Origin: Dyella acidiphila
GTDB taxonomy: Bacteria; Pseudomonadota; Gammaproteobacteria; Xanthomonadales; Rhodanobacteraceae
Length of the DNA: 64,000 nucleotides
Reading direction: 5' to 3'
Assembly (NCBI RefSeq): GCF_014863405.1
Contig: NZ_JACZZA010000010.1
Coordinates: 124,001-188,000, forward strand
In this document: piece by piece, positions 1 to 23,733 of the stretch
Numbering within the stretch: the stretch's first letter is position 1
Layout: every line of letters starts with the position of its first letter
Notes under the pieces: model-generated
What the model was told of the DNA's origin: nothing
Databases searched by the model: none
What the model saw: only the letters and a program-made list of their open reading frames with translations
Program-made: the position numbers and the translations under genes

Positions 1-888
1 CAGGGTTGGCCGCTGCAGGGACGGCGCGTGGTGATTGCCGGCAGCGGTCCGCTGCTGCTGGCGGCAGCGGCTACGGCGCGGCGGCATGGTGCGCATGTGC
101 TGGGCATCTACGAACAAGCCGATGCGGCAAACGTGCAGCGATTCGCGCGCAGCCTCTGGCGCTGGCCGCAAAAAGCCATGCAGGCGGCGTTGTTGCGCGG
201 GCAGCTGGCAGGCATTCCTTATCGCTGCGGCAGCGTGGTGCGCACGGCGCATGGTGACAGTGCGCTGCGTGCCGTCACCGTCGAAAGCGCACGCGGCAGC
301 GAGCGCCTGGATTGCGATCAGCTCGCCGTGGGCTACGGGCTGGTGCCGAATACCGAACTGGCGCAATCGCTCGGCTGCCGCCTGCGGCAACAGGGCGTTC
401 ATGCCAGCGTCGAAGTCGACGCCATGCAGCGCAGCAGCGTGGCGCATATTTATGCCGCGGGCGAACAGTGCGGCATCGGCGGACGCGACAGCGCGTGGCT
501 GGAAGGCAGCATCGCCGGACATGCCGCCGCCGGCGCGCCGGCCGCAGCCTCCTTGCTCCGGCAGCAACGCCATGCACGCGCTTTCGCCCAGGCCCTGGAG
601 ACGCATTTTGCGCTGCAGCCGCGCGTACGCACGCTGGCGCAGCCCGATACCTTGATCTGCCGCTGCGAAGACATCTCCCTGCAGGCGCTGGATGGCTACA
701 GCGACGCACGCAGCGCCAAGCTCGCCACCCGCTGCGGCATGGGCGCCTGCCAGGGCCGCATCTGCGGTGCGGCGCTAGCCGAACTCGGCCGCTTTCCGCG
801 CAGCGGCACGCGGCCGCCACTGTTTCCCGCCCGGCTGGCCAGCCTGGGCGACAACCTCTCCGACAACCACCGGGAATCTTCCGTATGA
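1..888 (+). CDS. D-hydroxyproline dehydrogenase-type oxidoreductase subunit, FAD/NAD domain with C-terminal BFD-like [2Fe-2S] domain (5' partial)
   Basis: The reading frame is open from base 1, so the start lies outside the window. The visible part begins in the middle of a nucleotide-binding fold (VVIAGSGPLLLAAA, a GxGxxx-type loop) and continues as a pyridine-nucleotide-disulfide oxidoreductase fold. A cysteine-rich tail (LICRCEDIS followed by CGMGACQGRICG) is the BFD-like iron-sulfur domain of opine oxidase and D-hydroxyproline dehydrogenase alpha subunits. Such subunits pass electrons from an FAD amine-oxidising partner. The stop overlaps the next start by four bases (ATGA), so the two are translationally coupled. 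The downstream deaminase and semialdehyde dehydrogenase point to hydroxyproline; octopine or nopaline oxidase-like use is the main alternative. Confidence 0.8.
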   Translation, partial: QGWPLQGRRVVIAGSGPLLLAAAATARRHGAHVLGIYEQADAANVQRFARSLWRWPQKAMQAALLRGQLAGIPYRCGSVVRTAHGDSALRAVTVESARGSERLDCDQLAVGYGLVPNTELAQSLGCRLRQQGVHASVEVDAMQRSSVAHIYAAGEQCGIGGRDSAWLEGSIAGHAAAGAPAAASLLRQQRHARAFAQALETHFALQPRVRTLAQPDTLICRCEDISLQALDGYSDARSAKLATRCGMGACQGRICGAALAELGRFPRSGTRPPLFPARLASLGDNLSDNHRESSV

Positions 889-1790
889 GCACTACCAGCA
901 TGTGGCACGGCGTACTGCCCGCCATCACCACGCCCTTCACCGCCGACGGCAAGGTCGATCACGCCTTCCTGGCCAAGCATGCGCTGCAATTGATCGATGC
1001 CGGCTGCAAAGGCATCGTGCCGCTGGGTTCGCTGGGCGAAGCGGCCACGCTGAGCTTCGACGAGAAGCTGGACATTCTGCGCACCCTGGTAAAAGCGCTG
1101 GACGGCCGTGCACCGGTGATCCCCGGCATTGCCTCGCTGTCGACCGATGAAGCCGTGCGCCTGGCGCAGGCTGCCAAGGCAATCGGCTGCAGCGGCCTGA
1201 TGGTGTTGCCGCCGTATGTGTACTCCACCGACTGGCGCGAAATGGGTGCGCATGTGCGCGCGGTGATCGGCGCCACCGATCTGCCGTGCATGCTCTACAA
1301 CAACCCGGTTGCCTACAAGACCGACTTCACGCCCGCACAGATGGCCGAACTGGCCGCCGCATTCCCCAACCTGCAAGCGGTAAAGGAATCTTCCGGCGAC
1401 GTACGCCGCTTTGCCGGTATCAGCGCCTTGCTGGGCGATCGCCTGCAATTGCTGGTAGGCATGGACGATGCGATCGTCGAAGGCGTGGCGATGGGTGCGG
1501 TGGGCTGGATTGCCGGCCTGGTGAATGCATATCCGAAGGAATCGGTGAAGCTGTTCGAACTGGCGCGCGATGGCGGCCCGAAGGCAGCCGCAGCGTTGTA
1601 TGCATGGTTCCTGCCGCTGCTGCGCCTGGATACGGTGCCGACCTTTGTGCAGCTGATCAAGCTGGTGCAGGAAAAGACCGGCACGGGCAGCGAACGCGTG
1701 CGCGCGCCGCGCTTGCCGGTGGCCGGCACGGAACGCGAGCAGGCATTGAAAGTGATTGAACACGCCATGGCGACCAGGCCGCAGCTGTAA
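885..1790 (+). CDS. DHDPS/NAL-family protein, probable 1-pyrroline-4-hydroxy-2-carboxylate deaminase
   Basis: A 301-residue class I aldolase-fold protein of normal family length. The GSLGEAA loop (about residues 48-54), the YNNP tyrosine (Tyr138) and the Schiff-base lysine in AVKESSGD (Lys167) are all present. In hydroxyproline catabolism this family deaminates and dehydrates 1-pyrroline-4-hydroxy-2-carboxylate to 2-oxoglutarate semialdehyde. That role is chosen over lysine biosynthesis because the gene sits between an iron-sulfur dehydrogenase subunit and a 2,5-dioxovalerate-type dehydrogenase. The ATG overlaps the upstream stop by four bases. It is probably cytoplasmic. A sialic-acid or other 2-keto-acid aldolase activity is less likely. 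Confidence 0.85.
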   Translation: MSTTSMWHGVLPAITTPFTADGKVDHAFLAKHALQLIDAGCKGIVPLGSLGEAATLSFDEKLDILRTLVKALDGRAPVIPGIASLSTDEAVRLAQAAKAIGCSGLMVLPPYVYSTDWREMGAHVRAVIGATDLPCMLYNNPVAYKTDFTPAQMAELAAAFPNLQAVKESSGDVRRFAGISALLGDRLQLLVGMDDAIVEGVAMGAVGWIAGLVNAYPKESVKLFELARDGGPKAAAALYAWFLPLLRLDTVPTFVQLIKLVQEKTGTGSERVRAPRLPVAGTEREQALKVIEHAMATRPQL

Positions 1791-1807
1791 TGCAAGCTGC
1801 CGCTCCG

Positions 1808-1843
1808 TTGCCGTCATTGCCGCTTGCGCGGCAATGACGGCAA
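1808..1843. repeat. Perfect intergenic hairpin (REP-like)
   Basis: A 16-bp perfect inverted repeat (1808-1823 and 1828-1843) with a four-base loop lies between the deaminase and aldehyde dehydrogenase genes. No T-run follows, so it is not a standard terminator. It may stabilise the mRNA or be a dispersed REP-type palindrome. Confidence 0.7.
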
Positions 1844-1894
1844 GCAAGAAGCATCGGTCGACAACGCGCCGCTTGATACAACGAGGCAACACCC

Positions 1895-3478
1895 ATGAGT
1901 ACGTTTGAACCTGTATTGATCGCCGGCAGCTGGCGCCCCTCGGCCGATGCCCAGGACGGATTTCGCGCCAACGACCCCGCCCGCGCCGAAGCGATCGGCC
2001 CCAGCTTCCCGGTCAGCGGCCGCGCCGATATCGAAGCCGCATTGCGCGCCGCCAGCGACGCTGCGGATGCGCTGGCCAACGCAGCGCCCTCGCACATCGC
2101 CGATTTTCTGGACGCCTACGCCGCCGCCATCGATGCCGATGCCGACCGGCTGGTGGCACTCGCACACGCCGAAACCGCCCTGCCCGCCGAACCGCGCCTG
2201 CGCTCGGTGGAATTGCCGCGCACCAGCAACCAGCTGCGGCAGGCAGCCCAGGCGGTACGCGGCTATGCATGGACCGATCCGGTGATCGACACGCGTAACG
2301 GCTTGCGTGCGCATCGCGCACCGCTGCACAAGCCGGTGCTGGTATTCGGCCCGAATAATTTTCCGTTCGCCTTCAACGCCATCGCGGGCAGCGATTTCGC
2401 CTCGGCGATCGCCGCGCGCAATCCGGTGATCGCCAAGGCGCACCCGTCGCATCCGGCCACCAGCCAGCGGCTCGCGCAGCTGGCGCACGATGCATTGAAG
2501 GCCAGCGGCTTGCCGGCTAGCGCAGTGCAAATGCTGTATCACTTCGATAATGCCCAGGGCCTGGCGCTGGCCGGCGATACACGCCTGGGTGCAATCGGCT
2601 TTACCGGCAGCCGTGCCGGCGGACTCGCGCTGAAGGCGGCGGCCGACAAGGCCGGCGTGCCGATGTATGCGGAGCTTTCCAGCGTCAATCCAGTCTTCGT
2701 GCTGCCCGGCGCACTGGCCGAGCGCGGCGACGCGTTGGCGCAGGAATTTTTCAACTCCTGCACGATGGGCAGCGGGCAGTTCTGTACCAATCCGGGTGTG
2801 CTGATCGTGCCGCAAGGTGCGGCCGGCGATGCGTTCGTCCATACCGCCACGCAATGGTTCGCCGGCAGCCCGCCCAAGGTGCTGTTCTCGCACGGCGTGC
2901 AGCAGAACCTGGCGCGGGCGCTGGCAGATCTGTTGGCCGCCGGTGCCGAATTGCTGGCCGGCGGCGATAGCGCCACCGGCTATCAGTTCCAGCCCAGCCT
3001 GTTGCTGGTCGACGGCGAGGTGTTCCTGGCGCATGCGCAGGCCTTGCAGGCGGAAGCCTTCGGTCCGGTCAGCCTGGTGGTGCGCAGTGCGGATGTGCAG
3101 GCGATGGCAGCGATTGCCGCCGCCTTCGAAGGCAATCTCACCGGCACCATCTATCGTGCGGCGGACGGCAGCGACGATGCGCAGTGGCAGACAGTGGCCG
3201 CGAATCTGCGCGCACGCGTCGGCCGCCTGATCGCCAACAAGATGCCCACCGGCGTAGCGGTAAGCCCGGCCATGAATCATGGCGGCCCGTATCCCAGTAC
3301 CAGCCATGCCGGCTTCACCGCAGTTGGCATGCCGGCGGCGATCCATCGTTTCACCGCCCTGCACAGCTATGACGGCGTGCCCGATGCATTGCTGCCGCCC
3401 GAACTGCGCGACCGCAATCCCGGCGGCGTGCAGCGCCTGATCGACGGCCACTGGAGCGATCGCGACATCACTGCGTAA
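1895..3478 (+). CDS. Aldehyde dehydrogenase, probable 2,5-dioxovalerate (alpha-ketoglutarate semialdehyde) dehydrogenase
   Basis: A 527-residue aldehyde dehydrogenase. The cofactor-loop motif GFTGSR (about 235-240), the general-base glutamate in AELSS (Glu260) and the catalytic cysteine in GQFCTNPG (Cys297) are intact. The wording around the active site (SVNPVFVLPGAL, MGSGQFCTNPG) is typical of the KGSADH class that oxidises 2-oxoglutarate semialdehyde to 2-oxoglutarate with NADP. This would be the last step of hydroxyproline breakdown begun by the two upstream genes, delivering carbon to the TCA cycle. The gene follows the deaminase by about 100 bases, separated by a hairpin, and is probably in the same operon. 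Confidence 0.87.
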   Translation: MSTFEPVLIAGSWRPSADAQDGFRANDPARAEAIGPSFPVSGRADIEAALRAASDAADALANAAPSHIADFLDAYAAAIDADADRLVALAHAETALPAEPRLRSVELPRTSNQLRQAAQAVRGYAWTDPVIDTRNGLRAHRAPLHKPVLVFGPNNFPFAFNAIAGSDFASAIAARNPVIAKAHPSHPATSQRLAQLAHDALKASGLPASAVQMLYHFDNAQGLALAGDTRLGAIGFTGSRAGGLALKAAADKAGVPMYAELSSVNPVFVLPGALAERGDALAQEFFNSCTMGSGQFCTNPGVLIVPQGAAGDAFVHTATQWFAGSPPKVLFSHGVQQNLARALADLLAAGAELLAGGDSATGYQFQPSLLLVDGEVFLAHAQALQAEAFGPVSLVVRSADVQAMAAIAAAFEGNLTGTIYRAADGSDDAQWQTVAANLRARVGRLIANKMPTGVAVSPAMNHGGPYPSTSHAGFTAVGMPAAIHRFTALHSYDGVPDALLPPELRDRNPGGVQRLIDGHWSDRDITA

Positions 3479-3504
3479 AGCACCCACCATCCCAGGGGTA
3501 TCCG

Positions 3505-5268
3505 ATGAAATCCATGCCGCTCGTGCTTCGCGTTGCCAGCGTCTTTGCGCTTTGCCTGCTGGTGGCCGCGCCCACCCTGGCAGCGGTCGACACAGACCAG
3601 CAGTTCCACGCGCTGTATACGCGCGAATGGCAATGGCGCCAGCAGCAATTCGCCGGTGCCGACGACGAGGACAGCCAGGGCAAGTCGGCCGCTCGCCTGC
3701 CGGCGGTGGACGCCGCCACGCAGGCGATGCGCGAGCAATACTGGCGCAACGTGCTCAAGCAACTCGACGCGATAGACCCACATCAGCTCGGCCCGGCGGA
3801 TCAGGTCAACTACGAGGTCTACCGGCAGCAGATCCAGGTGCTGTTGAACAACCAGCTCTTCAAGAGCTGGCAGATGCCGTTCAATGCCGACTCGGCGTTC
3901 TGGAGCAATCTGGGCTTTACCGCCCGCAGCACCTTCCACAACGAACGCGAATACCAGGATTACCTGGGCAAGCTGCACGATATCCCGCGCTACTTCGACG
4001 AGCAGATCGCCAACATGCGCCTGGGCATCGCGCGCGGCTTCACCCAGCCTGGCCTGGTCGTGCAGGGGCAGGAACCGTCGATCTCGGCGGTAGCCGATGC
4101 GCCGGGCGAGCAGAACATGTTCTACATGCCGTTCAAGCAGATGCCGTCGAACATCCCTGCCGCCGAACAAGCCACGCTGCGTGCGCAGGCGCTGGCGGCG
4201 ATCAAGCAGCAGGTGATTCCCGCCTATGCCAAGTTGCTGGACTTCATGCGCAACGACTATCTGCCCAAGGCACGCACGTCGCTGGCGGCCGAAGATCTGC
4301 CGGACGGCAAGGCGTATTACCAGTCGCGGATTTTCGAATTCACCACGCTGGACATGAGTCCCGACGATATTCACGCGCTCGGCCTGAAAGAGATGGCCGG
4401 CATCCACCAGCAGATGCTGGACATCATCAAGCAGACCGGCTTCAAGGGCAGCTTTGCCGACTTCCTGCACTTCCTGCGCACCGATCCGCAGTTCTATGCC
4501 AAGACGCCGGACGAACTGCTCAAGGACGCGGCGTGGATCGCCAAGGAAGTGGATGGCGAGGTTGGCGATTACATCGGCCGCCTGCCACGGCGACGCTTTG
4601 CGATCAAACCGGTACCGGCCGACCTGGCCCCGATCTATACCGGCGGACGCGGTGGCCCCGGCATCTATCTGGTCAACACCTATGACCTGCCGGCGCGCCC
4701 GCTGTATTCACTGCCGGCGCTGACCCTGCACGAATCCTCGCCCGGCCACGCGCTGCAGATGCCGCTGGCCGAAGAAATGGAAGGCCTGCCGGATTTTCGT
4801 CGCTACAGCTATATCTCCGCCTACGGCGAGGGCTGGGCGCTGTATTGCGAATACCTGGGCCAGGAAATGGGCATGTACCAGACGCCCTACGAACGCTTCG
4901 GCTATCTGAGCTACCAGGCCTGGCGCGCCGCGCGCCTGGTGGTGGATACCGGCCTGCATCATCTGCACTGGACGCGCGAACAGGCGCAGGATTATCTGCG
5001 CCAGAACACTGCGCTGGCCGATCATGAAATCCAGACCGAAGTGGACCGCTATATCGCCTGGCCGGGCCAGGCGCTGTCGTATTACCTGGGCGAGATGGCG
5101 ATACGCGAAGACCGCGCACGCGCGGAAAAAGCGCTGGGCGCGAAGTTCGATATCCGCGCGTTCCACGATGCGGTGCTGTCGACCGGCTCGGTACCGTTGC
5201 CGGTGTTGAACCAGCGCATCGATCAGTTCATTGCCGGCGGCGGGAAGTCGCCGTATGCGACACATTAA
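3505..5268 (+). CDS. Exported DUF885-family protein, probable zinc peptidase
   Basis: A 587-residue protein starting with a clear Sec signal peptide (hydrophobic stretch ending near ALAAVD, about residue 27). The C-terminal half carries HESSPGH (the HExxxGH-like zinc-ligand motif of DUF885) followed by AYGEGWALY, which supplies the usual downstream glutamate. DUF885 proteins resemble gluzincin metallopeptidases, and a few have been linked to peptide hydrolysis. Activity here is inference. The gene starts 26 bases after the aldehyde dehydrogenase stop, with AGGGG before its ATG, so it probably belongs to the same operon. A role in releasing amino acids or hydroxyproline from peptides in the periplasm would fit its neighbours. 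Confidence 0.8.
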   Translation: MKSMPLVLRVASVFALCLLVAAPTLAAVDTDQQFHALYTREWQWRQQQFAGADDEDSQGKSAARLPAVDAATQAMREQYWRNVLKQLDAIDPHQLGPADQVNYEVYRQQIQVLLNNQLFKSWQMPFNADSAFWSNLGFTARSTFHNEREYQDYLGKLHDIPRYFDEQIANMRLGIARGFTQPGLVVQGQEPSISAVADAPGEQNMFYMPFKQMPSNIPAAEQATLRAQALAAIKQQVIPAYAKLLDFMRNDYLPKARTSLAAEDLPDGKAYYQSRIFEFTTLDMSPDDIHALGLKEMAGIHQQMLDIIKQTGFKGSFADFLHFLRTDPQFYAKTPDELLKDAAWIAKEVDGEVGDYIGRLPRRRFAIKPVPADLAPIYTGGRGGPGIYLVNTYDLPARPLYSLPALTLHESSPGHALQMPLAEEMEGLPDFRRYSYISAYGEGWALYCEYLGQEMGMYQTPYERFGYLSYQAWRAARLVVDTGLHHLHWTREQAQDYLRQNTALADHEIQTEVDRYIAWPGQALSYYLGEMAIREDRARAEKALGAKFDIRAFHDAVLSTGSVPLPVLNQRIDQFIAGGGKSPYATH

Positions 5269-5323
5269 TTGACCTCTCCTGCTCGGCGGGGCGGGAGTAA
5301 CGCAACGGCACGGGGAGCCATCC

Positions 5324-6766
5324 ATGGGTTTGATCCACGACATGACTCGACGCAAATCCGTCGAGGCGATGCAGCAGGAAGCCGGCGAGCGCAGCGGACT
5401 GCGGCGCGTGCTCGGCCTGTGGCAGCTCACCGCAATCGGCCTGGGCGGCATCATCGGCGTCGGCATCTTTGTGCTTACCGGCACGGTCGCCGCGACCCAG
5501 GCCGGCCCGGCGGTGGTGCTGTCGTTCCTGCTCGCCGGCATCGCCAGTGCGGCGGCGGCGCTGTGCTATGCGGAATTCTCCGGACTGATTCCCGTCTCCG
5601 GCAGCGCCTACACCTACGGCTACGCGGTGCTCGGCGAATTCGCCGGCTGGATCATCGGCTGGGATCTGTTGCTTGAATACGCCCTGATTGCCGCGGTGGT
5701 CGCGGCGGGCTGGTCGGGCTATGTGCAGGCACTGTTGAACGCCGCCGGCATGCCGCTGCCGGTGTGGGCGCAAGGTGCCTACGGCTCTGCGCCCGGACGC
5801 CTGTTCGATTTGCCCGCGGTCGTGATCTCGGTGGCGATCACCGCGCTGCTGGCCATGCGCATGCAATGGGGCGCGCGCTTCAACACCTTGATCGTGGCGA
5901 TCAAGATCGCCGCCGCGGCACTCATCGTGATTGCCGGCGTGGCCTATGTGAAACCCGAACGCTGGCATCCGTTCATGCCGTTCGGCGTGCACGGCGTGGT
6001 AACCGGCGCGGCCGTGGTGTTCTTTGCCGTATTCGGCTACGACATGCTGACCACGGCGGCGGAAGAATCGCGCCAACCGCAGCGCGACCTGCCGCGCGCC
6101 GTACTGCTTTCGCTGGGCATTGCGATGGTGCTGTACTTCGCCATCTGCCTGGTGCTGACCGGCATCGTGCCTTACACCAGCTTGAACAATCCCGCCCCGG
6201 TTGCCGGCGCCTTCAGCGCGATCGGCATGCCGCGGGTAATGGTGATTATTTCGCTGGCCTCGATCTGCGGCATCACTAGCGTGATCTTCGCCAACTTGCT
6301 GGCCGGCGCGCGCATCTGGTTTGCGCTCTCGCGCGACGGCCTGCTGCCCAGCTGGTTTGCCAAGGTGCATCCGCGCTGGCACACGCCGCATCGCACCACC
6401 TTCTTGCTGGGCACGGTCACCGCGGTGGCATCGGGGCTGTTTCCGCTCGACGAACTGGCCAAGCTGGTCAATATCGGCGTGCTCGGCGCCTTTATCGTGA
6501 TCTGCACTGCGGTAGCCGTACTGCGCTGGCGCCAGCCGCAACTGCCGCGCCCGTTCCGCACCCCGCTGGTGCCGCTGGTGCCCTTGATCGGCGTGGGCTT
6601 TTCCTGCTGGCTGATCTGGGGCCTGCCCAGCATTACCTACTGGCGTTTCGCGCTGTGGCTGCTCATCGGGTTGCTGGTGTATTTCGGCTATGGCCGGCGC
6701 CACAGTCATCTCGGCCAGGCGGAGAGTCGCACGCAGTATGCAAAATTCCGCACGGACGATGGCTGA
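5324..6766 (+). CDS. APC-superfamily amino acid permease
   Basis: A 480-residue integral membrane protein with about twelve hydrophobic segments. The first helix has the APC substrate-binding glycine motif (GLGGIIGVGIFVLTG), and PVSGSAYTYGYAVLGEFAGW is the typical second and third helix region of the YfnA/cationic amino acid transporter branch. It should import an amino acid across the inner membrane by proton or cation coupling. Its position at the end of the hydroxyproline catabolic genes, 55 bases after the DUF885 gene, suggests hydroxyproline, proline or a related imino acid as substrate. That assignment is inference from context only. Confidence 0.85.
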   Translation: MGLIHDMTRRKSVEAMQQEAGERSGLRRVLGLWQLTAIGLGGIIGVGIFVLTGTVAATQAGPAVVLSFLLAGIASAAAALCYAEFSGLIPVSGSAYTYGYAVLGEFAGWIIGWDLLLEYALIAAVVAAGWSGYVQALLNAAGMPLPVWAQGAYGSAPGRLFDLPAVVISVAITALLAMRMQWGARFNTLIVAIKIAAAALIVIAGVAYVKPERWHPFMPFGVHGVVTGAAVVFFAVFGYDMLTTAAEESRQPQRDLPRAVLLSLGIAMVLYFAICLVLTGIVPYTSLNNPAPVAGAFSAIGMPRVMVIISLASICGITSVIFANLLAGARIWFALSRDGLLPSWFAKVHPRWHTPHRTTFLLGTVTAVASGLFPLDELAKLVNIGVLGAFIVICTAVAVLRWRQPQLPRPFRTPLVPLVPLIGVGFSCWLIWGLPSITYWRFALWLLIGLLVYFGYGRRHSHLGQAESRTQYAKFRTDDG

Positions 6767-6806
6767 TTTCGCCAAGACGTTGCCATGCACCTCACCCACT
6801 ATCCGC

Positions 6807-6886
6807 ACAGGCCCGTGTACGTTGCCACCCGCGCCGTCCGCCAACTCCGGCGTAACTCCCTAGTGCGTGCACGGGCCTGTTTTTTT
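6807..6886 (+). terminator. Probable terminator with unusually long loop
   Basis: An 11-bp perfect inverted repeat (6807-6817 and 6870-6880) encloses a 52-base loop and runs directly into seven Ts (6880-6886). It follows the permease and precedes the Tat-exported protein gene. The T-run supports termination; the long loop leaves room for a nested structure or a small RNA. Confidence 0.6.
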
Positions 6887-6933
6887 CTCCTCGCACACGG
6901 TACGGCCATGCGCCGTAGCCGGAGGTATTGAGC

Positions 6934-9288
6934 GTGGATCGCCGACGTTTCCTGCAAGGCATCGCTGCCACCGGCGCAGCGGTGGGACTGGGCGGCGCCG
7001 GCCGCAGCGCGTTTGCCGATACTTCTTCCACAGCTATTGCGCGCAACGGGCCGCCGCCGCGCGTGGCTACGAACAGTCTTTCGCTGCATGGCCATACGGC
7101 ACTGGGCGGCTTCGGCGAAGCAGGCAGCGATTGGCAGGTTTATGAAGACCTGCGCGATGCGCACGGCGCCATCACCCTGGTCTGTGGCGAGCAGGCCTGC
7201 GTGCTGGGCAAGCGCACCGAGCCGGTACATGCCGAGTCCGGCGCGCCCTATCTCGGCCTCAAGCTGGCGGATATCGCACTGGCCGAAGCGGATCTGCTGG
7301 CAGACCGGCTGCTGCGCCACGGCGAACCCGACGAAGACGAAGTGCGCCGCGCCGCACCGCCGCCGGCTTCGCAACTCAATCCGGAGAACTATTACGGCCG
7401 GCTGCCGTGGACCACCCTGGTCGGCACGCGCCAGTGCGCGGACACCATGCCGGTCTACACCTCGGGCAGCACGCGCACTTACCACACCGACCAGGTCTTC
7501 CCCGAATTGCACGACCCGCAGCGCGTGGCACGGCGCAGCGAAGGCTTGCTCGGCGGTTGGTTGCCGGCCGTGCACAAAGTGGTGCCGATCGACGCTGGCC
7601 GCTGGTACGACGTGCTGGTATTCGCCGATGTCGATGCGAACGACCGCTTCGTGGTGCAGACCTGGCACCGCACGGCGCGAATCGAACACGGCCGCATCAG
7701 CCAGGTCAGCTACGGCCACAGTTATCCTGCCTATCCGCCGCGCCGGCAGCCGCCGGATGCGGCCGCGTTTTATCGCGCATTGCTGCGCTTTCACGATGCC
7801 TGGCAACACGAACTGGCCGATGCCTGCCCGGCCACCTTGCCGGCGGCCGGCTGGGCCGAGATGGCGCGCCATGCCTTCGCACGCGAGCTGGTAGTGCGTC
7901 CCGGCGGCGTCTATCCCAAATACGGCGCGGTCGATCGCGACTACTACGGCAACGAATACGACGGCTTCCAGGACACCTTTACCAGCTCGCTCTACGCCAA
8001 TCTCGAATGGGGTCGCTACGCCCAGGCCGCAGCGGTGCTGGACGAATACTTCAGCGATTTCGTGCAGGCCGACGGCATGATCAATATGCGCGGCGCCGAG
8101 ACCGCGCAGTTCGGCCTGACCCTGTCGCTGCTGGCACGCTATTTCCGCTACACGCAGGATGCCGCGCTGCTGCTCAAACACCGCGCCAAGATCGAAGCCA
8201 CTGCCCAGCTGCTGCTGGAACTGCACGACGAAAGCCTGCGCCTGGCCGCGGATGATCCCGGCCATGGACTGATCCACGGCTGGAACGAATCGGATGCCTG
8301 CCTGTTTCCCGATCCCACGCTGTGGTGGAAACCGTATTACGCCAACAGCGCGATGGCCGCACGCGGCCTGGGCGATATCGCACTGATATGGCCGCAGATC
8401 GCTGGCAACCCGGCAGCAGCAACCCAGTGGCAGCAACGCTCTGCCCTGCTCGCCGCGCAAGTGGAAAAAACCTTGCGCGCGAATATCCGCCACGATCTTT
8501 CGCCGCCGTATATCGGCCCATTGCCTGGCGTGAAGCTCACCTTCCGCGAATCGCTGGCGCAGGAAAAACCCAGCGAACAGCAATGGCCGCACCGCGCCTA
8601 CGCCGAGCTGCTGCAAGCCGATGTACTGCCGGACGAACTGGCGCAACTGGTGATCGACTGCATGCGCGGACACGGCGCCACCAGCATCGGCGTAGTCGCC
8701 AATGTCGGACCGGTGGCGCCGGATGGACGCGATATCCTGGGCTTTATCTCCTACGGTTATGCACAGCAACTGCTGCGACTCAACCGCATCGACGAATACC
8801 TGTTATTCCTCTATGCGCATCGGCATCACGCGCATACGCCGGGCAGCTGGACCGCAGGCGAAGTGTCGGATATCAGCGGCGGCATGCCGCTGTTCTGCAT
8901 GCCGGCGCAGCTGACCACCCCGCTGCTGTTGCGCTGGATGCTGGTATTCGAAGACAGCACCGGCCACACGCTGTATCTGGGACGCGCCATTCCCCGCGCC
9001 TGGATGGGCAGCGGCCAGGTTATCGCGATCAGCGATGCGCCCACCCGCTGGGGCCGTACCGGCCTGCATTGGCAAGCCATCGAAGGCGGCATGCAATGCA
9101 CCGTCAGCCTGCCCGAGCGCGAAGCGCCGCCCGCGGTATGGTTGAGCCTGCGCCTGCCGCAAGGCCGCGCACGGCGTGATGTGCATGTGAACGGCGCCAG
9201 CGCAGCCGCTGCCGATCTGCACGACGATGCGCTGCGCCTGCGTGGTGCGCCCGGCGAACGCATCACGGTAACGCTGCATTTCGCCTGA
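6934..9288 (+). CDS. Tat-exported (alpha/alpha)-barrel glycosidase-like protein
   Basis: A 784-residue protein opening with a twin-arginine signal (DRRRFLQG, then an Ala/Gly-rich h-region ending near AFAD). GTG 6934 is preferred because GGAGG lies eight bases upstream; a TTG two codons earlier is too close to it. The central region (FTSSLYANLEWGRYAQ, TAQFGLTLSLLARYFRYTQD, GWNESDACLFPDP) looks like a six-hairpin toroid of glycosidases such as rhamnosidase- or GH127-like enzymes, with a small beta-sandwich at the C-terminus. I cannot name the family. It sits 240 bases before a GH127 arabinofuranosidase gene and is likely a partner in the same glycan breakdown. It probably acts in the periplasm or outside the cell. 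Confidence 0.7.
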   Translation: MDRRRFLQGIAATGAAVGLGGAGRSAFADTSSTAIARNGPPPRVATNSLSLHGHTALGGFGEAGSDWQVYEDLRDAHGAITLVCGEQACVLGKRTEPVHAESGAPYLGLKLADIALAEADLLADRLLRHGEPDEDEVRRAAPPPASQLNPENYYGRLPWTTLVGTRQCADTMPVYTSGSTRTYHTDQVFPELHDPQRVARRSEGLLGGWLPAVHKVVPIDAGRWYDVLVFADVDANDRFVVQTWHRTARIEHGRISQVSYGHSYPAYPPRRQPPDAAAFYRALLRFHDAWQHELADACPATLPAAGWAEMARHAFARELVVRPGGVYPKYGAVDRDYYGNEYDGFQDTFTSSLYANLEWGRYAQAAAVLDEYFSDFVQADGMINMRGAETAQFGLTLSLLARYFRYTQDAALLLKHRAKIEATAQLLLELHDESLRLAADDPGHGLIHGWNESDACLFPDPTLWWKPYYANSAMAARGLGDIALIWPQIAGNPAAATQWQQRSALLAAQVEKTLRANIRHDLSPPYIGPLPGVKLTFRESLAQEKPSEQQWPHRAYAELLQADVLPDELAQLVIDCMRGHGATSIGVVANVGPVAPDGRDILGFISYGYAQQLLRLNRIDEYLLFLYAHRHHAHTPGSWTAGEVSDISGGMPLFCMPAQLTTPLLLRWMLVFEDSTGHTLYLGRAIPRAWMGSGQVIAISDAPTRWGRTGLHWQAIEGGMQCTVSLPEREAPPAVWLSLRLPQGRARRDVHVNGASAAAADLHDDALRLRGAPGERITVTLHFA

Positions 9289-9382
9289 CGGCGTGGCTTG
9301 CGCGATGCTTGCATCGTCATGCCACATACAACGCGCGGCTGTGCGTCCAAACCCGTCTAAACAGCGATGCGGTGATTTTTTT

Positions 9383-9440
9383 ATGCGAAATTCCGCATGC
9401 AAGTACCGCAATTGACACAAGACGCGCCGAAGAATGTTAC
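9383..9440 (+). promoter_or_regulatory. Promoter with operator-like palindrome before the GH127 gene
   Basis: TTGACA (9412-9417) and TGTTAC (9435-9440) are separated by 17 bases and form a plausible sigma-70 promoter. Just upstream is a 16-base palindrome with one mismatched pair, ATGCGAAATTCCGCAT (9383-9398), suited to a dimeric regulator. The promoter would start the GH127 transcript independently of the upstream gene. Confidence 0.5.
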
Positions 9441-9525
9441 GGCACGATGAAATCACGTTTGAGGATGTGCATCGACAACGCCGCGGGCTGCATGCGCGGC
9501 ATCCACCATGACTTCCAGGAATGGC

Positions 9526-11484
9526 ATGCACGACGGGGAAGAGCAACGCAGACGTTTCTTGAAAGGTGCCGCCGCCGCATTGGCCACCGCGGCGATCGCG
9601 CCGGTGCGCGCCTTCAGTCCCGACCTGGCCGAGCCGGATAAAACCGCCACCGCGGCCGCGACGCAAGCCATCGCCGATCAACCGGTACGTTGCATGCAGC
9701 CGTTTGCGCTGAACCGGGTGAAGCTGCTGGACAGCGACTTCGCGCGTGCCACTGCGATCAATCTGCGCTACTTGCAAAGCCTGCCGGTAGATCGGCTGGC
9801 CCATAGCTTCCGCATCCAGGCCGGCCTGCCCTCGTCGGCTACACCGCTCGGCGGCTGGGAAAAACCGGATTGCGAACTGCGCGGCCATTTCAGCGGCGGC
9901 CATTATCTTTCGGCGGCGGCGCTGGCTTATGCCAGCGAAGGCGACGAGGTACTCAAGACCCGCGGCGACCAGCTGGTGGCCGCGCTCGCCGCCTGCCAGC
10001 AGCGTAACGGTTATCTCAGCGCCTTCCCCGACAGTTTCTTCGACCGCCTGAGCAGCGGGCAGAAGGTGTGGGCGCCGTTCTACACGCTGCACAAGATCCA
10101 GGCCGGCATGCTCGATATGTATCGCCTGGCCAGCAACCCGCAGGCGCTGCAAGTAGCCACCGGCATGGGCGACTGGATCGTGCGCTGGCTCAACGGTTAC
10201 TCCGATGTGCAGATGGCGCACATTCTCAAGACCGAGTACGGCGGCATCAACGATTCCATGTATGAGCTGTATGCGATCACCGGCAACGAGCGCTATCGCG
10301 ACGCCGCGCATCGCTTCGACCAGGCCTCGCTGTTCGATCCCCTCGCCGCCTACCGCGACGAACTGCAAGGCCTGCACAGCAATACCCAGATCCCCAAGAT
10401 CATCGGCGCCGCACGCCGCTACGAACTGACCGGCGAACCGCGCTACCGCCGCATCGCCGAGTTCTTCTGGGAGACCGTCACCCAGCACCGCAGCTACGCC
10501 ACCGGCGGCTCCAGCAACGACGAATTCTGGAAGACCGGCCCCGGCGACCTGAAAGACCAGCTCGGCCTCTACAGCGCCGAATCCTGCGTGGCCTACAACC
10601 TGCTCAAGCTCACCCGTCACGTATACAGCTGGAACGGCGATCCGCGCGCGTTCGACTATTACGAGCGCACGCTGTACAACGCGCGCCTGGGCAGCCAGGA
10701 CGCCCAGGGACTGAAGCTGTATTACTACCCGCTGCGCGCCGGCTCGGTGAAATACTTCAACTCACCTACCGACTCGTTCTGGTGCTGCACGGGCAGCGGC
10801 GCGGAAGAATTCGCGCGCTTCAACGACAGCATTTATTTCCACGACGAGCGGGATCTGTACGTCAACCTGTTTATCCCCTCCGAGCTGGACTGGCGCGAGC
10901 ACGGTCTGGTGCTGCGCCAGGAAACGGCTTTCCCACGCGAACCGCGCACCCGCCTGCGCCTGCAGCTGACGCAGCCGACAAGCTTCGCCTTGCACGTACG
11001 CATTCCGGCCTGGATCGGCCCTGGCGCGCGCATCAAGCTCAACGGCGAAGCGCTGGATGCCTTCGCTTCGCCCGGCAGCTATTTCAGTCTGCAACGCGAA
11101 TGGCACAACGGCGACCAGCTCGAGCTGGAACTGCCGATGCAGCTGCACAGCGTAGCGCTGCCCGGCGACGACAGCCTGCAGGCCATGCTGTATGGGCCGC
11201 TGGTGCTCGCCGCCAATTTCGGCAGCCACGGCGTGACGCATGGCATGCAGTATTGCGACTATGACGCTGAGCCCCATCCCGAACCTGCCGCGATGCCTGC
11301 GCCGCGGTTCACTGCGAAGCAGTCTTCCGATACCGGCTGGATGCGCGTGCTGTCCGCCGCGGAGCTGCGTTTCGAAGCCACCACCAGCCAGGGCACCGTG
11401 CCGGTTGCGCCGCTGAACCAGATCTACGGCGAGCGCTACGCGGTGTATTGGCAGAACCAGAACGACACGCCCGGCAGCGGCTGA
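9526..11484 (+). CDS. GH127/GH146-type beta-L-arabinofuranosidase, Tat-exported
   Basis: About 652 residues from ATG 9526, which has AGGA at five-base spacing; an in-frame ATG at 9508 would add six residues. The N-terminus has a twin-arginine signal (RRRFLKGAAAAL). The body is the DUF1680/GH127 fold: GGWEKPDCELRGHFSGGHYL near the front, AESCVAYN (the Glu-x-Cys zinc pair) and SFWCCTGSGAEEFA (the Cys-Cys pair). These match the zinc-bound Glu-Cys-Cys-Cys site in which one cysteine is the nucleophile in HypBA1. Characterised members release L-arabinose from beta-1,2-arabinooligosaccharides linked to hydroxyproline in plant extensin, or from pectin side chains. The TonB receptor downstream suggests uptake of the substrate or its fragments. 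Confidence 0.88.
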   Translation: MHDGEEQRRRFLKGAAAALATAAIAPVRAFSPDLAEPDKTATAAATQAIADQPVRCMQPFALNRVKLLDSDFARATAINLRYLQSLPVDRLAHSFRIQAGLPSSATPLGGWEKPDCELRGHFSGGHYLSAAALAYASEGDEVLKTRGDQLVAALAACQQRNGYLSAFPDSFFDRLSSGQKVWAPFYTLHKIQAGMLDMYRLASNPQALQVATGMGDWIVRWLNGYSDVQMAHILKTEYGGINDSMYELYAITGNERYRDAAHRFDQASLFDPLAAYRDELQGLHSNTQIPKIIGAARRYELTGEPRYRRIAEFFWETVTQHRSYATGGSSNDEFWKTGPGDLKDQLGLYSAESCVAYNLLKLTRHVYSWNGDPRAFDYYERTLYNARLGSQDAQGLKLYYYPLRAGSVKYFNSPTDSFWCCTGSGAEEFARFNDSIYFHDERDLYVNLFIPSELDWREHGLVLRQETAFPREPRTRLRLQLTQPTSFALHVRIPAWIGPGARIKLNGEALDAFASPGSYFSLQREWHNGDQLELELPMQLHSVALPGDDSLQAMLYGPLVLAANFGSHGVTHGMQYCDYDAEPHPEPAAMPAPRFTAKQSSDTGWMRVLSAAELRFEATTSQGTVPVAPLNQIYGERYAVYWQNQNDTPGSG

Positions 11485-11774
11485 GCGTGCCGCCTGCGCC
11501 GCCGCTGCGGCACAGGCACCCGTCACGACGGACAGCGGCGAGCGCTAGCCGCTGCCATCGCGATGCGTCATGGCCGGGTCTCAGCGCCTGGCCGCAACCG
11601 GGAAGCATCCGGAAAACCTCGCGCCTGCCGCCCTGAACCCGGGAGGGACCAGCACGCAGGCATGCAACACCGCCATCCGAATGCCGGCCGTCGGCGCATT
11701 GCCCGTGCCCGCGCATTCATTGCAGTGCCCTTGCATCACGTTGTGCCGCCACCGCCCAAGCCAGCGAGAACATC

Positions 11775-14681
11775 ATGCCCATTACGAATGTCATCCGGTC
11801 CAGTCATCCACCTTGTCGACGCCAGGCCCTGATCGCCTGCGCTGTCCGCAGCACGCTCGCGCTTAGTGCATGCGGCAGCAGCGCACTGTATGCGCAAGAC
11901 ACCACCACACCAAGTCCGCCCGCGCAGACCGGCCAGGCCGCATCGAATGCAGCCAGGCCGGAGAAGGCCAAAAACCTCGACGCGGTAACCGTCACCGGCT
12001 CGCTGATCCGCCGCGTCGATACCGAAACGTCCAACCCGGTGCTCACCATCGACAGCAGCCAGATCGCCGCCAGCGGCAAGCCGACCCTGGGCGACCTGGT
12101 GCAGCAGCTGCCGTCGATCGCCGGCAACGCCACCAATCCGAATATCGACAATGGCGGCGGCACCGGCCAGTCCGCGGTGTCGCTGCGCGGCCTGGGCAGC
12201 AATCGCACGCTGATGCTGGTGGATGGCCGGCGCCTCGCCTACGAGGACATCAACAGCATTCCGGCCAATATGATCGAGCGCATCGAAGTGCTCAGCGACG
12301 GCGCCTCCTCGGTATATGGCTCCGATGCCATTGCCGGCGTGGTGAATTTCATCCTGAAGGATCACTACCAGGGCGTGCAGCTCAGCAGCGACTACGGCGA
12401 GAGCTCGCATGGCGACGGCAATCGCCGCAATTTCAGCTTTCTGGCCGGGCTGGCGGAAAAGCGCTTCAGCCTGATCTTCGGCACCACCCACCAGAGCGAG
12501 AACGAGATCGGCGCCGCGGCGCGCGATTACTCCCGTTACGAGCTGGCGCTGACCAATGGCCAGATCGTGCGGCTCGGTTCCTCCGCCACGCCCACCGGAC
12601 AATTGGAAAATGCCAACGGCACCTATGTCACCTTGAACGGCGGTGTGCCCGGCATCACCACCCAGGCCGACTATCACCCGTACACCTCGGCCGACTCCTA
12701 CAACTACCAGCCCTACAACCTGCTGCAGACACCGCAGGAGCGCACCAACCTGTCGATGCGCGGCACGTTCAAGATCGGCGCCAATACCGAAGCCTACCTG
12801 GATACGTTCTATACCAAGACAGCCTCCGCCTCGGTGATCGCGCCGGTGCCGATCTTCGCCAACTCGGACGATTTCCTGATCTCCAAGGACAACTACTACA
12901 ACCCGTTCGGCATCAATTTCGGCACCGATCGTGTCAGCGGCCAGAGCTACAACGATTTCAATACGCGACTTACCTCGCTAGGCAACCGTGACTACGCCAA
13001 CCAGACCTACGATCTGCAAGTGACGCCCGGCATCCGCGGCAGCTTCGGCGACAGCAGCTGGCAATGGAATGCCGATTTCAACTACGGCAAGGTGCGCCAG
13101 AAAACCGAGAATAATGGTTTTCTCGATTACGCCGGCTTCGAGCAGGCGGTGGGCCCGTCGTTCCTGAGCAGTGCCGGCGTGGTGACCTGCGGCACCGCCG
13201 CCAATCCGATCAGCAACTGCACGCCGATCAATATCTTCAACATCAACGACCCGAACACCATCGCCGCACTGAAGAAGTTGATCGTCAATCCGGTCACCAC
13301 CTATGACTACAGCATGCGCCAGTTCGAACTCGGCGCGAACGGCGAGCTGTTCGATCTGCCGGCCGGACCGGTCAATCTGGCGGCAGGGTTTTCCTACCGG
13401 CACGAAACGCAGACGGATGGCACCGATACGCCCAGCGCCACCGCCATCAGCAACGGTCCGCTGGCCGGTCTGTGCGGGGTGATCGAGGATTGCGCCAGCG
13501 TGCTCAGCGGCGGCTATTCGGTGAAGGAAGCCTATGCCGAAACGCTGATTCCGATCCTCGCCAATCAGCCGTTCTTCTACGCCCTGAACCTGGATATCGG
13601 CTCGCGCTATTCGCGCTACAGCCTGTCCGGCAGCACCACCAACAGCAAGATCGCGCTGGAATGGCGGCCGGTGCAGGATCTATTGCTGCGCGGCACTGCC
13701 TCACAGGTGTTTCGCGCACCGAATATCAGCGAACTGTATTCCGGCACGGCCGGCGGTGCGCTGGCGGCTACCGATGTGTGCGACGGCTATACCGGCGGCC
13801 ATCCGCAAGCCTGCGCCAACGTGCCCACCGACGGCAGCTTCCAGCAGATCAATCCGCAGATCGGCGTGCGCAGTTCGGGTTCGGTGCCGGCCGGCTACGA
13901 CCTCAAGCCGGAATACGGCAAATCCTATGATTTGGGCTTGGTCTACAGCCCGCACTGGGTGCAGGGCCTGTCGCTCAGCGCCGATGCCTGGCGCATCCAT
14001 CTCAACGACACCATCGTCGATGGACTCGACCCCACCACCATCATGAACGAGTGCTACTACAGTGACCGGCTGTGCAGCCTGATCAACCGCGCCGGCAACG
14101 GCCAGATCAGCTTTATCCAGTTGCCCACGGTCAACCTGGGCGAAACCTGGGCGGCCGGCATCGACTCCACCATCCAGTACAACCTGGCCACCGCCAACTA
14201 CGGCAAATTCAACCTCAGCCTGCAAAGCACGTATATGCAGCGCTACGACGTCGACACCGCACCCGGCGATCCCAGCGTGCCGATCACCCATTGTGCCGGC
14301 ACCTATTGCCCGGTCTACGGCGAATTCCCGCGCTGGCGCGGACTGGCCACGCTGAACTGGAGCGAGGGCGCGTGGAGCGCAAGCTGGACCATGCGCTATA
14401 TCGGCCGCACCCAGGTCGGCAGTGCGGATCTGTCGCAAGGTTATTCGGCGGACGAAAGCCTGCCCGGCGTAGTGCATCCGATCGGCGCCTACGTCTATCA
14501 CAATATTTCCGGCAGCTACGCCTTCGCCAAGTACCACACGACGTTGTCGGTGGGCATCGACAATCTTTCCAACAAGCAGCCGCCGATGTTCTACCAGTGG
14601 GGCAGCAACTCCAATACCGATGCGTATACCTATGACCTGATCGGACGCTATTACTGGATGCGCGCAACGCTGTCGTTCTGA
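11775..14681 (+). CDS. TonB-dependent outer-membrane receptor
   Basis: A 968-residue receptor. After a signal-like N-terminus ending near ALYAQD, a linker leads to the TonB-box-like LDAVTVTGSLIRR and a plug domain (LRGLGSNRTLMLVDGRRLA, IERIEVLSDGASSVYGSDA, IAGVVNFILK). The C-terminal portion is a 22-strand-type barrel ending with an aromatic strand (RYYWMRATLSF). In Xanthomonadales such receptors import glycans and other bulky compounds. Adjacency to the GH127 and Tat-glycosidase genes suggests arabino-oligosaccharides or glycopeptides. The 290-base gap before it (11485-11774) holds no recognisable gene; it is GC-rich, with possible structure but no clear promoter. Confidence 0.9.
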   Translation: MPITNVIRSSHPPCRRQALIACAVRSTLALSACGSSALYAQDTTTPSPPAQTGQAASNAARPEKAKNLDAVTVTGSLIRRVDTETSNPVLTIDSSQIAASGKPTLGDLVQQLPSIAGNATNPNIDNGGGTGQSAVSLRGLGSNRTLMLVDGRRLAYEDINSIPANMIERIEVLSDGASSVYGSDAIAGVVNFILKDHYQGVQLSSDYGESSHGDGNRRNFSFLAGLAEKRFSLIFGTTHQSENEIGAAARDYSRYELALTNGQIVRLGSSATPTGQLENANGTYVTLNGGVPGITTQADYHPYTSADSYNYQPYNLLQTPQERTNLSMRGTFKIGANTEAYLDTFYTKTASASVIAPVPIFANSDDFLISKDNYYNPFGINFGTDRVSGQSYNDFNTRLTSLGNRDYANQTYDLQVTPGIRGSFGDSSWQWNADFNYGKVRQKTENNGFLDYAGFEQAVGPSFLSSAGVVTCGTAANPISNCTPINIFNINDPNTIAALKKLIVNPVTTYDYSMRQFELGANGELFDLPAGPVNLAAGFSYRHETQTDGTDTPSATAISNGPLAGLCGVIEDCASVLSGGYSVKEAYAETLIPILANQPFFYALNLDIGSRYSRYSLSGSTTNSKIALEWRPVQDLLLRGTASQVFRAPNISELYSGTAGGALAATDVCDGYTGGHPQACANVPTDGSFQQINPQIGVRSSGSVPAGYDLKPEYGKSYDLGLVYSPHWVQGLSLSADAWRIHLNDTIVDGLDPTTIMNECYYSDRLCSLINRAGNGQISFIQLPTVNLGETWAAGIDSTIQYNLATANYGKFNLSLQSTYMQRYDVDTAPGDPSVPITHCAGTYCPVYGEFPRWRGLATLNWSEGAWSASWTMRYIGRTQVGSADLSQGYSADESLPGVVHPIGAYVYHNISGSYAFAKYHTTLSVGIDNLSNKQPPMFYQWGSNSNTDAYTYDLIGRYYWMRATLSF

Positions 14682-14697
14682 ACTCGGGAAAGCAAAA

Positions 14698-14732
14698 CGG
14701 CGCACGCTCCTGGATACCAGGAGCGTGCGCCG
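14698..14732 (-). terminator. Shared strong hairpin between convergent genes
   Basis: A perfect 15-bp stem (14698-14712 and 14718-14732) with a five-base loop lies between the receptor and the peroxiredoxin. On the minus strand it is followed by TTTT, so it terminates the peroxiredoxin transcript and may also stop the receptor transcript. Confidence 0.75.
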
Positions 14733-14748
14733 TCGTGGTGTAAGCCGA

Positions 14749-15661: not shown

Positions 15662-16681
15662 TCACGCCAGCAGTTGCCGCAGGGCATCCACCGAATCTTG
15701 CGGACAAGCCCCGCGGCGCAACTCATGCACCCCCAAATCCACCAGCTTCTGCTTAAAATGCAGCCAGCCGGGCTGGCCCGCGGCATACGGCTGGTCGGCG
15801 CTGAGCCGCGCGGCAATCTGGTCCGCCGGCACCGCGCGCAGCAACTGTGCGGGATGGTCGGCAAGCTGGCTGGACAGCAGCACCGCACCGACCAGCTTCA
15901 ATGGCGCAGCCGCCAGCCGGCCGGGACCATTGCGCAGGTCGGCCTCGAATTTTTCTACCCCGCTGCGGCGACGGATCACCGGGGCATAGCGGATCCAGCG
16001 GCATGCATCCTCGTCGACCAGGCCGAGCGCGTCGTCTTTCATATGCAGGTAATTGGCCACGCCGGTGGCAAGCAGGTTTTCGGGCTGCACCAGCACCGCA
16101 TCTTCGGACAGAAAATCCAGCCCCTGCAGCAGGCTGTGCAGCGCCAGCGTCGACTTGCCCGCTCCGCTATGACCGAGCAGCAACACGCCGCGTCCTTGTC
16201 GGCCCACGCATGCACCGTGCAGCGGAATCAGTCCTTGTGAACGGGCGGCCAGGATAAACACCGCGAATTCGATCAGCTCGTAACGCAGGTGATAGGGAAA
16301 GCGCAGCATGTCCTGCGAAACCACTACCAGCGCCTGTCTCTGCGCGGGCGATATCGCCACGTAGTTCATCGCATTGATCACGCCACAGAGCATGCCGGCG
16401 CCAGCCTGCATGCGTACCGGCGGCGGCTCGTGCACCGGCCGCAGCGAGCGGCCCGGCAGCAGCTTCAATTCAATCTCGAATTCCGGAATCTGGCCCGGCA
16501 GGCGATGCGGCGGCAAGCCGCCATAGGCGGCCTCGACCAGCGCGAGCAACGCCGCGCTGTCGCTCTGGAAATGAAAGCGGCCGCCCAGCAGCTGCTTGCT
16601 CAGCGGCGCATGCACGCTACGGCGTTCGCCGAAGGGATCGGTATGCAGATCGCGGACGGCTCGTCCGGAAACCACGCTCAT
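15662..16681 (-). CDS. HprK-related kinase (HPr kinase/phosphorylase C-terminal-like ATPase)
   Basis: A 339-residue protein. ATG 16681 is preferred to GTG 16687 because AAAGG stands five bases before it. The C-terminal half has LIPLHGACV (about 151-159) and the Walker A loop GHSGAGKST (170-177), then a segment (LDFLSEDAVLV) like the acidic motif of HPr kinase. The N-terminal half matches no domain I know. Kinases of this kind occur in proteobacterial clusters with NTP_transf_5 nucleotidyltransferases and PqqD-like proteins (the HPr-rel-A type systems), and also in some lasso-peptide clusters. Their substrates are largely unknown. No PqqD gene is visible here. The gene diverges from a B12-type radical SAM gene. 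Confidence 0.8.
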   Translation of the reverse strand: MSVVSGRAVRDLHTDPFGERRSVHAPLSKQLLGGRFHFQSDSAALLALVEAAYGGLPPHRLPGQIPEFEIELKLLPGRSLRPVHEPPPVRMQAGAGMLCGVINAMNYVAISPAQRQALVVVSQDMLRFPYHLRYELIEFAVFILAARSQGLIPLHGACVGRQGRGVLLLGHSGAGKSTLALHSLLQGLDFLSEDAVLVQPENLLATGVANYLHMKDDALGLVDEDACRWIRYAPVIRRRSGVEKFEADLRNGPGRLAAAPLKLVGAVLLSSQLADHPAQLLRAVPADQIAARLSADQPYAAGQPGWLHFKQKLVDLGVHELRRGACPQDSVDALRQLLA

Positions 16682-16713
16682 GCGCACCTTTTATCGGGCC
16701 GGTTCAGTTGCCG

Positions 16714-16798
16714 GTGAGTGCGCCGCGCAGCCACAAAGGTTGCCTCGCCTCAATCGCCGGCCGCCGATGCAACCGCGCATGCCACAGCCGGCACTCAC
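16714..16798. repeat. Nested inverted-repeat element in divergent spacer
   Basis: Outer arms GTGAGTGC (16714-16721) and GCACTCAC (16791-16798) enclose inner arms GGTTGC (16739-16744) and GCAACC (16769-16774). A similar arrangement is seen at 43381-43460, also in a divergent spacer. It could be an operator or a mobile palindrome. Confidence 0.5.
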
Positions 16799-16856
16799 GG
16801 CCATGCGGCAGCCCCGGGCTGCGGCTTTCCAAGGCTACGATTGAGGCTATGCCGCA

Positions 16857-19533: not shown

Positions 19534-19570
19534 GCTCAGCTCTTCTTCCTCCCCCTGCGGGAACTTGCCC

Positions 19571-19942: not shown

Positions 19943-19977
19943 CCCTCCTCTCCCCGCTAGAGAGAGGGAGCAGAGCA

Positions 19978-22199: not shown

Positions 22200-22200
22200 G

Positions 22201-23724: not shown

Positions 23725-23733
23725 GCAGTGCGC

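Follow-up and report, generated by a model that had tools for sequence, protein, structure and literature searches.

Gene content of the locus

The stretch analyzed here (the window) comprises 64,000 nucleotides of contig NZ_JACZZA010000010.1 of Dyella acidiphila (G000:C1:124001-188000, in a genome of 5.07 Mb), and its left end lies within a locus that combines genes predicted to catabolize hydroxyproline with genes predicted to remove sugars from hydroxyproline-rich plant glycoproteins. Genes to the left of the window are given in coordinates of a longer stretch, L003, of which base 16001 is base 1 of the window. An earlier sequence-only reading had named eight genes between positions 1 and 14681, all of which were found on the plus strand over that span, and had proposed a look to the left of base 1 for an epimerase and a flavoprotein subunit, both of which are there together with a 2Fe-2S subunit.

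The catabolic half begins with a 4-hydroxyproline epimerase (L003:13326-14270, plus strand) that scores 446.1 bits against the NCBIfam model NF010577, for which the cut-off is 442. Its closest structure by PDB sequence comparison is 4juu (490 bits), an epimerase of Xanthomonas campestris (PMC4113996). Three consecutive plus-strand genes can be assigned, from their domains and neighborhood, to the subunits of a D-hydroxyproline dehydrogenase: a DAO-family flavin adenine dinucleotide (FAD) protein (L003:14267-15364; DAO, 202 bits), a 2Fe-2S protein of 82 amino acids (L003:15361-15609; Fer2_4) encoded between the two flavoprotein genes, and an FAD/pyridine-nucleotide oxidoreductase (L003:15602-16888, of which positions 1-888 are in the window; Pyr_redox_2, 125 bits). 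On the same strand follow a dihydrodipicolinate synthase (DHDPS) family protein (885-1790; PF00701, 202 bits), predicted to be pyrroline-4-hydroxy-2-carboxylate deaminase, and an aldehyde dehydrogenase (1895-3478; PF00171, 159 bits) with a predicted specificity for 2-oxoglutarate semialdehyde; both match at the superfamily level, with no NCBIfam equivalog among those shown reaching its cut-off (0 of the 25 models shown for the aldehyde dehydrogenase). The route that begins with the epimerase proceeds through D-hydroxyproline dehydrogenase, pyrroline-4-hydroxy-2-carboxylate deaminase and 2-oxoglutarate semialdehyde dehydrogenase, and the proteins matched here by domain presumably fill these roles. 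Next are a DUF885 protein (3505-5268, plus strand; PF05960, 528 bits) with a signal-like N-terminus, presumed to be an exported peptidase, whose PDB relatives are uncharacterized proteins or lipoproteins (the best being 3o0y, 241 bits), and an APC-family amino acid permease (5324-6766, plus strand; AA_permease_2, 179 bits) that scores 573 bits against the NCBIfam BcaP model, under its cut-off of 690.

The sugar half consists of three plus-strand genes, encoding a protein to which we give the working name HupG (6928-9288), a putative beta-L-arabinofuranosidase of the glycoside hydrolase (GH) family 146 type (9508-11484; PF07944, 380 bits), and a TonB-dependent outer-membrane receptor with plug and beta-barrel domains (11775-14681) that is 57% identical to its relative in Xanthomonas sp. 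Leaf131 (G354). Both HupG and the GH146-type enzyme start with a twin-arginine motif; the predictions of export are based on twin-arginine (Tat) motifs and signal-like N-termini read by eye. Every gene from the epimerase to the end of the receptor gene at 14681 is on one strand, with 4-bp overlaps between the epimerase and DAO genes and between the FAD oxidoreductase and DHDPS genes, gaps of 104, 26 and 55 bp from the deaminase through DUF885 to the permease, and gaps of 161, 219 and 290 bp from the permease to the receptor. A hairpin of 18 pairs (14696-14734) between convergent genes, 3' of the receptor gene, is likely to be the right end of the locus; the terminator-like scan returned 12 in total versus 10.9 in shuffled sequence, which is nearly equal, and a promoter scan returned 0 sites versus 2.7 in shuffles. 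At the left end, a PAS-AraC regulator (L003:12390-13109, minus strand) is divergent from the epimerase, and adjoining it are genes (L003:9089-12412) for a histidine kinase of the Cache-PAS type and a response regulator of the LuxR type that were matched in just two and one, respectively, of the other regions compared, some of which may stop short leftward. The co-occurrence of a TonB receptor, hydrolases predicted to be exported, a transporter and a regulator is the composition of a TonB-dependent utilization locus.

The GH146-type enzyme and HupG

The sequence-only reading had labeled the zinc-cysteine enzyme (9508-11484) as a GH127 enzyme of the HypBA1 type. Its closest solved relatives by PDB sequence are 5opj (350 bits), which we take to be the GH146 enzyme BT0349, and 8k7y (GH146, 212 bits), while the GH127 entries 3wkw (HypBA1) and 4qjy score 35 and 91 bits. 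Because of these scores (350 versus 35 bits), sequence comparison assigns the enzyme to GH146 and rules out a HypBA1-type GH127 identity. The other part of the label, a Glu-Cys-Cys-Cys zinc site, was confirmed as E358, C360, C426 and C427, residues that are invariant in 44 of 44 related sequences (matches covering 80% of the query, without stops and within set identity ranges, with some genomes counted twice as both a G region and an L locus) and that correspond to the ligands of zinc described in GH146 and GH127 enzymes (PMC10850190). XeHypBA1 of Xanthomonas euvesicatoria, likewise a GH146 enzyme, is chiefly active on beta-linked arabinofuranosyl hydroxyproline (Araf-beta-Hyp; PMC10850190) and releases arabinose from Ara-Hyp. 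The window enzyme is approximately 42% identical to the Xanthomonas-type GH146. A second, weaker PF07944 gene of the window genome (55.7 bits) is at G000:C4:56803-57687 (L002, L005).

HupG has no Pfam or NCBIfam family and no PDB sequence relative. A structure model of the protein (predicted local distance difference test, pLDDT, 76; predicted template modeling score, pTM, 0.81) resembles six-hairpin glycosidases in both Foldseek and VIA-align searches, with several families near one another. The top Foldseek match is GH127 HypBA1 (E 9e-6, template modeling score 0.25), and the best VIA-align match is 9ju0 (Z 24.4), followed by entries of the GH63, GH37, GH65 and GH78 types (Z approximately 19-21); because VIA-align ranks so many six-hairpin families together, no family is claimed for HupG. 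A separate model of its catalytic part was poorer (pLDDT 64). Descent from GH146 was considered, and a single profile comparison was unconvincing (probability 14%, E 0.0019), the match being confined to approximately 100 columns where the C-terminal sheet domain joins on; descent from GH121 fared worse (probability 0.4%). The locus points to an uncharacterized protein family that accompanies hydroxyproline genes.

Conservation of gene order and linkage

Linkage of the two halves was counted in 147 genomes of the family and 299 genomes of the order, both samples drawn from larger groups. A close GH146 orthologue (at least 63% identity) is present in 19 of the 147 family genomes, and in 18 of the 19 the same contig carries the epimerase at a distance of 7-14 kb, the exception being G093, which has no epimerase; thus the halves, on whose linkage in relatives the sequence-only reading had staked its proposal, are indeed joined. 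HupG is present in 14 family genomes, in all 14 of which it shares a contig with the epimerase, and in 29 of the 299 order genomes, with the epimerase 8.7-27.3 kb away in 29 of 29 (median 15.5 kb). When GH146 in the order sample was counted as hits down to 9.2e-93 (weaker PF07944-type rows being excluded) and the epimerase at a threshold of E 1e-60, 42 genomes had GH146, 34 of these had the epimerase, and 31 had it within 45 kb. Fisher values for these counts take no account of relatedness among the genomes and are given no weight here. Two Dyella genomes (G053 and G068) have a strong GH146 hit elsewhere and a GH146 remnant (G053 C1:137857-138177, G068 C25:213642-213890) adjoining HupG; because the remnants stand beside a full-length HupG match, GH146 and HupG appear capable of being lost separately.

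Gene order was compared by tblastn in 36 regions, 29 of them chosen for HupG or GH146 and seven being epimerase-only controls. The usual order is the regulator on the opposite strand, the epimerase, the dehydrogenase subunits, the deaminase, the aldehyde dehydrogenase, an optional M24 prolidase-like gene, one or two DUF885 genes and the permease, followed by an optional S9 prolyl peptidase, an optional GH35-type gene (at the far end in some regions) and HupG, and then by an optional set of TonB receptor, GH121, GH43 and S9 genes before GH146 and a TonB receptor, the relative order of which varies. This one order spans Dyella to Xanthomonas, and because it is conserved in many genomes, an arrangement by chance is very unlikely. 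The DAO gene was matched in 34 of the 36 regions (the others being G006 and G093), and in G006 the permease, HupG, GH146 and receptor genes are inverted. Neither HupG nor GH146 was matched in any of the seven control regions, five of which have the permease. A GH35-type beta-galactosidase (DUF5597) is an additional member of the locus in many relatives.

The Xanthomonas version of the locus is enlarged by prolyl peptidases and by GH121 and GH43 enzymes of the extensin type, and in the neighboring family, which includes Xanthomonas and Pseudoxanthomonas, four of seven regions have GH121 and the extensin-type GH43 in the same run. The genome of X. euvesicatoria ATCC 11633 has, on contig C92, consecutive genes from the epimerase to the GH35-type gene, and on contig C11 (23.5 kb) it has HupG, a TonB receptor, GH121, a GH43 enzyme of 528 residues (the length of XeHypAA; PMC6085000), and a GH146 enzyme 90% identical to that of Leaf131. 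Because of the arrangement in Xanthomonas sp. Leaf131 and in X. phaseoli, in which approximately 21 kb of one chromosome separate HupG from the epimerase, C92 and C11 would be expected to join. The GH146, GH121, TonB receptor, DUF885, M24 and FAD genes of X. phaseoli ATCC 49119 (L139, L186, L187) match in at least two pieces, the result of either sequencing error or decay.

A search for HupG in contigs of named genomes, by which only close relatives are detectable, returned 56 loci from Xanthomonas, Pseudoxanthomonas, Lysobacter, another Lysobacterales bin, Rhodanobacter, Luteibacter, Dyella, one Sphingomonas and four genomes that we take to belong to the phylum Acidobacteria, with GH121 inside the fetched stretch in 26 of the 56. 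An epimerase relative is encoded by all ten named HupG genomes tested; it is on a different contig from HupG in bin L128 and X. euvesicatoria, as well as in Lysobacter and acidobacterial genomes discussed below. In Sphingomonas sp. 35-24ZXX, HupG is accompanied by a TonB receptor, permease, DHDPS-family protein, aldehyde dehydrogenase and epimerase, with M24 and GH146 genes downstream, and the epimerase matches a different NCBIfam equivalog (528.6 bits, cut-off 376) and is 36% identical to that of the window genome. In the Bryobacterales locus L163, HupG lies between PF07944-type genes in the company of an aldose epimerase, an M24 prolidase-like protein and S9 prolyl peptidases, and another Bryobacterales locus (L172) has similar neighbors by tblastn. 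At positions 2107-8840 of L163, the neighbors of HupG and the prolyl peptidases include GH146 matches that are doubled and a gene of the GH127 type.

Proposed function and comparison with known systems

From its gene content and conserved order, we consider it likely that this is a plant glycoprotein-utilization locus that operates by the whole pathway proposed here and for which the food is hydroxyproline rather than arabinose. Extensin carries Ser-Hyp4 motifs with alpha-galactose on serine and arabinosides on hydroxyproline (PMC5371791). Arabinosylated, hydroxyproline-rich peptides of the extensin type would pass through the TonB receptor into the periplasm, where the GH146-type beta-L-arabinofuranosidase and HupG, both predicted to be exported by the Tat route, would remove sugars, and DUF885 (joined in relatives by prolidase-like and prolyl peptidases) would cleave the peptide. 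The permease would import the amino acid or a small peptide, and the epimerase, D-hydroxyproline dehydrogenase, DHDPS-type deaminase and aldehyde dehydrogenase would convert hydroxyproline to 2-oxoglutarate, under the predicted control of the divergent PAS-AraC regulator. The sequence-only reading, that a single locus deglycosylates, cuts, imports and burns, gains support from the discovery of the epimerase, from the linkage of the halves, and from the presence in the Xanthomonas locus of relatives of enzymes with biochemically demonstrated activity on extensin glycans (PMC6085000). The sugar chemistry has been published for Xanthomonas relatives: XeHypAA, XeHypBA2 and XeHypBA1 degrade Ara4-Hyp stepwise, and a prolyl oligopeptidase gene, broken there, adjoins xehypAA (PMC6085000). 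X. euvesicatoria is unable to use L-arabinose and retains its pathogenicity after deletion of all three enzymes, and the 2018 study posed the question of why it keeps them (PMC6085000). The gene order, in which sugar-removal genes are joined to hydroxyproline genes, suggests that the extensin-stripping enzymes are kept for access to hydroxyproline. No arabinose isomerase domain was found in the window genome by a search in which controls were matched in 5 of 14 cases and which did not extend to the oxidative arabinose route. Through such a locus, a structural wall protein could serve as food for bacteria of soil and of plants.

Several observations weigh against this reading. The weakest point is that the window locus has no GH121 and no HypAA-type GH43, both of which the same tblastn finds in Xanthomonas regions; a whole-genome search of D. 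acidiphila for GH121, which lacked a positive control, was empty, and the sole GH43-domain gene of the genome is outside the locus. Therefore, no known enzyme here opens Ara3-Hyp or Ara4-Hyp chains, and either HupG performs this step or the bacterium takes up peptides already trimmed. Eight of the 42 order genomes with GH146 have no epimerase match (G093, G277, G356, G147, G153, G163, G178 and G298), and three more have an epimerase that is unlinked or on another contig (in G372, for example, the two are on separate contigs). Among the 19 close GH146 genes, three are split or stop-flagged (G124, G081 and G006), and the G006 region shows no DAO gene by tblastn. In G093, where GH146 was the only gene of the locus matched, it is beside GH27 and dehydrogenase genes. 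Lysobacter L160 has HupG and GH146 together on a contig of 2.0 Mb and the epimerase on another; the epimerase relatives of the four acidobacterial genomes are also on contigs other than that of HupG, and in two of these genomes (stretches L164 and L165) no hydroxyproline gene, peptidase gene or arabinosidase gene was seen near HupG. Finally, a single order supplies most of the linkage, which may in part reflect inheritance. The GH146 group of G093 (L099, 3015-18788), which includes GH27, an aldehyde dehydrogenase and a short-chain dehydrogenase, is perhaps an arabinose oxidation cluster.

We propose tentatively, with slightly less than an even chance of being right, that HupG founds a new GH family for glycans of hydroxyproline-rich proteins and that the locus exemplifies a type, shared by Xanthomonadales, Sphingomonas and in part Acidobacteria, in which sugar is removed for the sake of the amino acid. 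Candidate bonds for HupG are the beta-1,2- or alpha-1,3-arabinofuranosides on hydroxyproline and the alpha-galactose on extensin serine.

Among other explanations of the locus, one that overlaps with utilization of extensin is that the same mechanism is directed at another arabinosylated hydroxyproline protein, such as an arabinogalactan protein, a lectin or a small signaling peptide. The GH35-type beta-galactosidase of many relatives would suit arabinogalactan proteins, but tblastn matched no GH35-type gene in the window locus, and the enzymes of the Xanthomonas locus act on linear hydroxyproline arabinosides of the extensin or solanaceous-lectin type (PMC6085000); this target is unlikely, although it is the best of the alternatives. 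It is improbable that the target of the right half is pectic arabinan or the side chains of rhamnogalacturonan-I, with the hydroxyproline genes as incidental neighbors: the closest solved relative of the GH146 enzyme is 5opj, BT0349 acts on arabinan-derived oligosaccharides (PMC10850190), and the G093 orthologue is away from hydroxyproline genes, but 18 of the 19 close orthologues are at an epimerase, the extensin-type GH121 and GH43 are in the same run in the neighboring family, and no arabinose isomerase domain was found. Somewhat less probable still is a tool of virulence or defense suppression that loosens wall glycoproteins, with the catabolic genes as a by-product, for although the GH121-GH43 operon of X. 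euvesicatoria is HrpX-dependent and plant-induced, the triple deletion is still pathogenic (PMC6085000), and the locus or parts of it are also found in Dyella, Rhodanobacter, Luteibacter, Sphingomonas and Acidobacteria. The least probable is ancestral synteny of halves that share no pathway, which would fit the origin of most linked genomes in one order and the separate contigs of HupG and epimerase in Lysobacter and Acidobacteria, but not the peptidase and glycosidase modules that come and go within a fixed order, the pairing of HupG with a non-orthologous epimerase in Sphingomonas, or the epimerase relative in all ten HupG genomes tested.

Elsewhere in the window, positions 15662-24441 contain genes for an HPr-kinase-like protein (under the Pfam cut-off), an NTP_transf_5 protein, two B12-binding radical SAM proteins, two glycosyltransferases and, as judged by eye, a methyltransferase-like protein, a group that looks like a natural-product cluster; positions 26481-29282 encode a type VI secretion protein of the VgrG type.

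TonB-dependent carbohydrate loci (polysaccharide utilization loci, PUL, and CUT systems) consist of an outer-membrane receptor, exported glycosidases, an inner-membrane transporter and a regulator; the locus described here shares that layout, but its catabolic genes are directed at an amino acid and not a sugar. At the level of domain matches, clusters built around 4-hydroxyproline epimerase share with it the dehydrogenase, the DHDPS-type deaminase and the aldehyde dehydrogenase. The epimerase, too, is held in common with these clusters (PMC4113996, the main text of which has no word starting with "glycos" or "arabino"), and the window locus adds DUF885, HupG, GH146 and the TonB receptor. The HypAA-HypBA2-HypBA1 cluster of Bifidobacterium longum likewise degrades beta-arabinosides linked to hydroxyproline, but it collects the arabinose sugars by means of GH127 and import by an ABC transporter, and the available text of its descriptions mentions no hydroxyproline catabolism (PMC7263609, PMC6085000). 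In line with the sequence-only reading, searches of open literature (subscription papers and preprints excluded) found no paper that, as judged by title, abstract or selected passages, connects hydroxyproline catabolism with the removal of hydroxyproline-linked arabinosides. The closest counterpart is the X. euvesicatoria set of XeHypAA (GH43), XeHypBA2 (GH121) and XeHypBA1 (GH146), of which the sugar half is the subject of PMC6085000, a paper with neither "epimerase" nor "racemase" in its main text. The window locus differs from this set by having no GH121 and no HypAA, and the two belong to the same locus family, in which GH146, TonB receptors and HupG accompany hydroxyproline genes.

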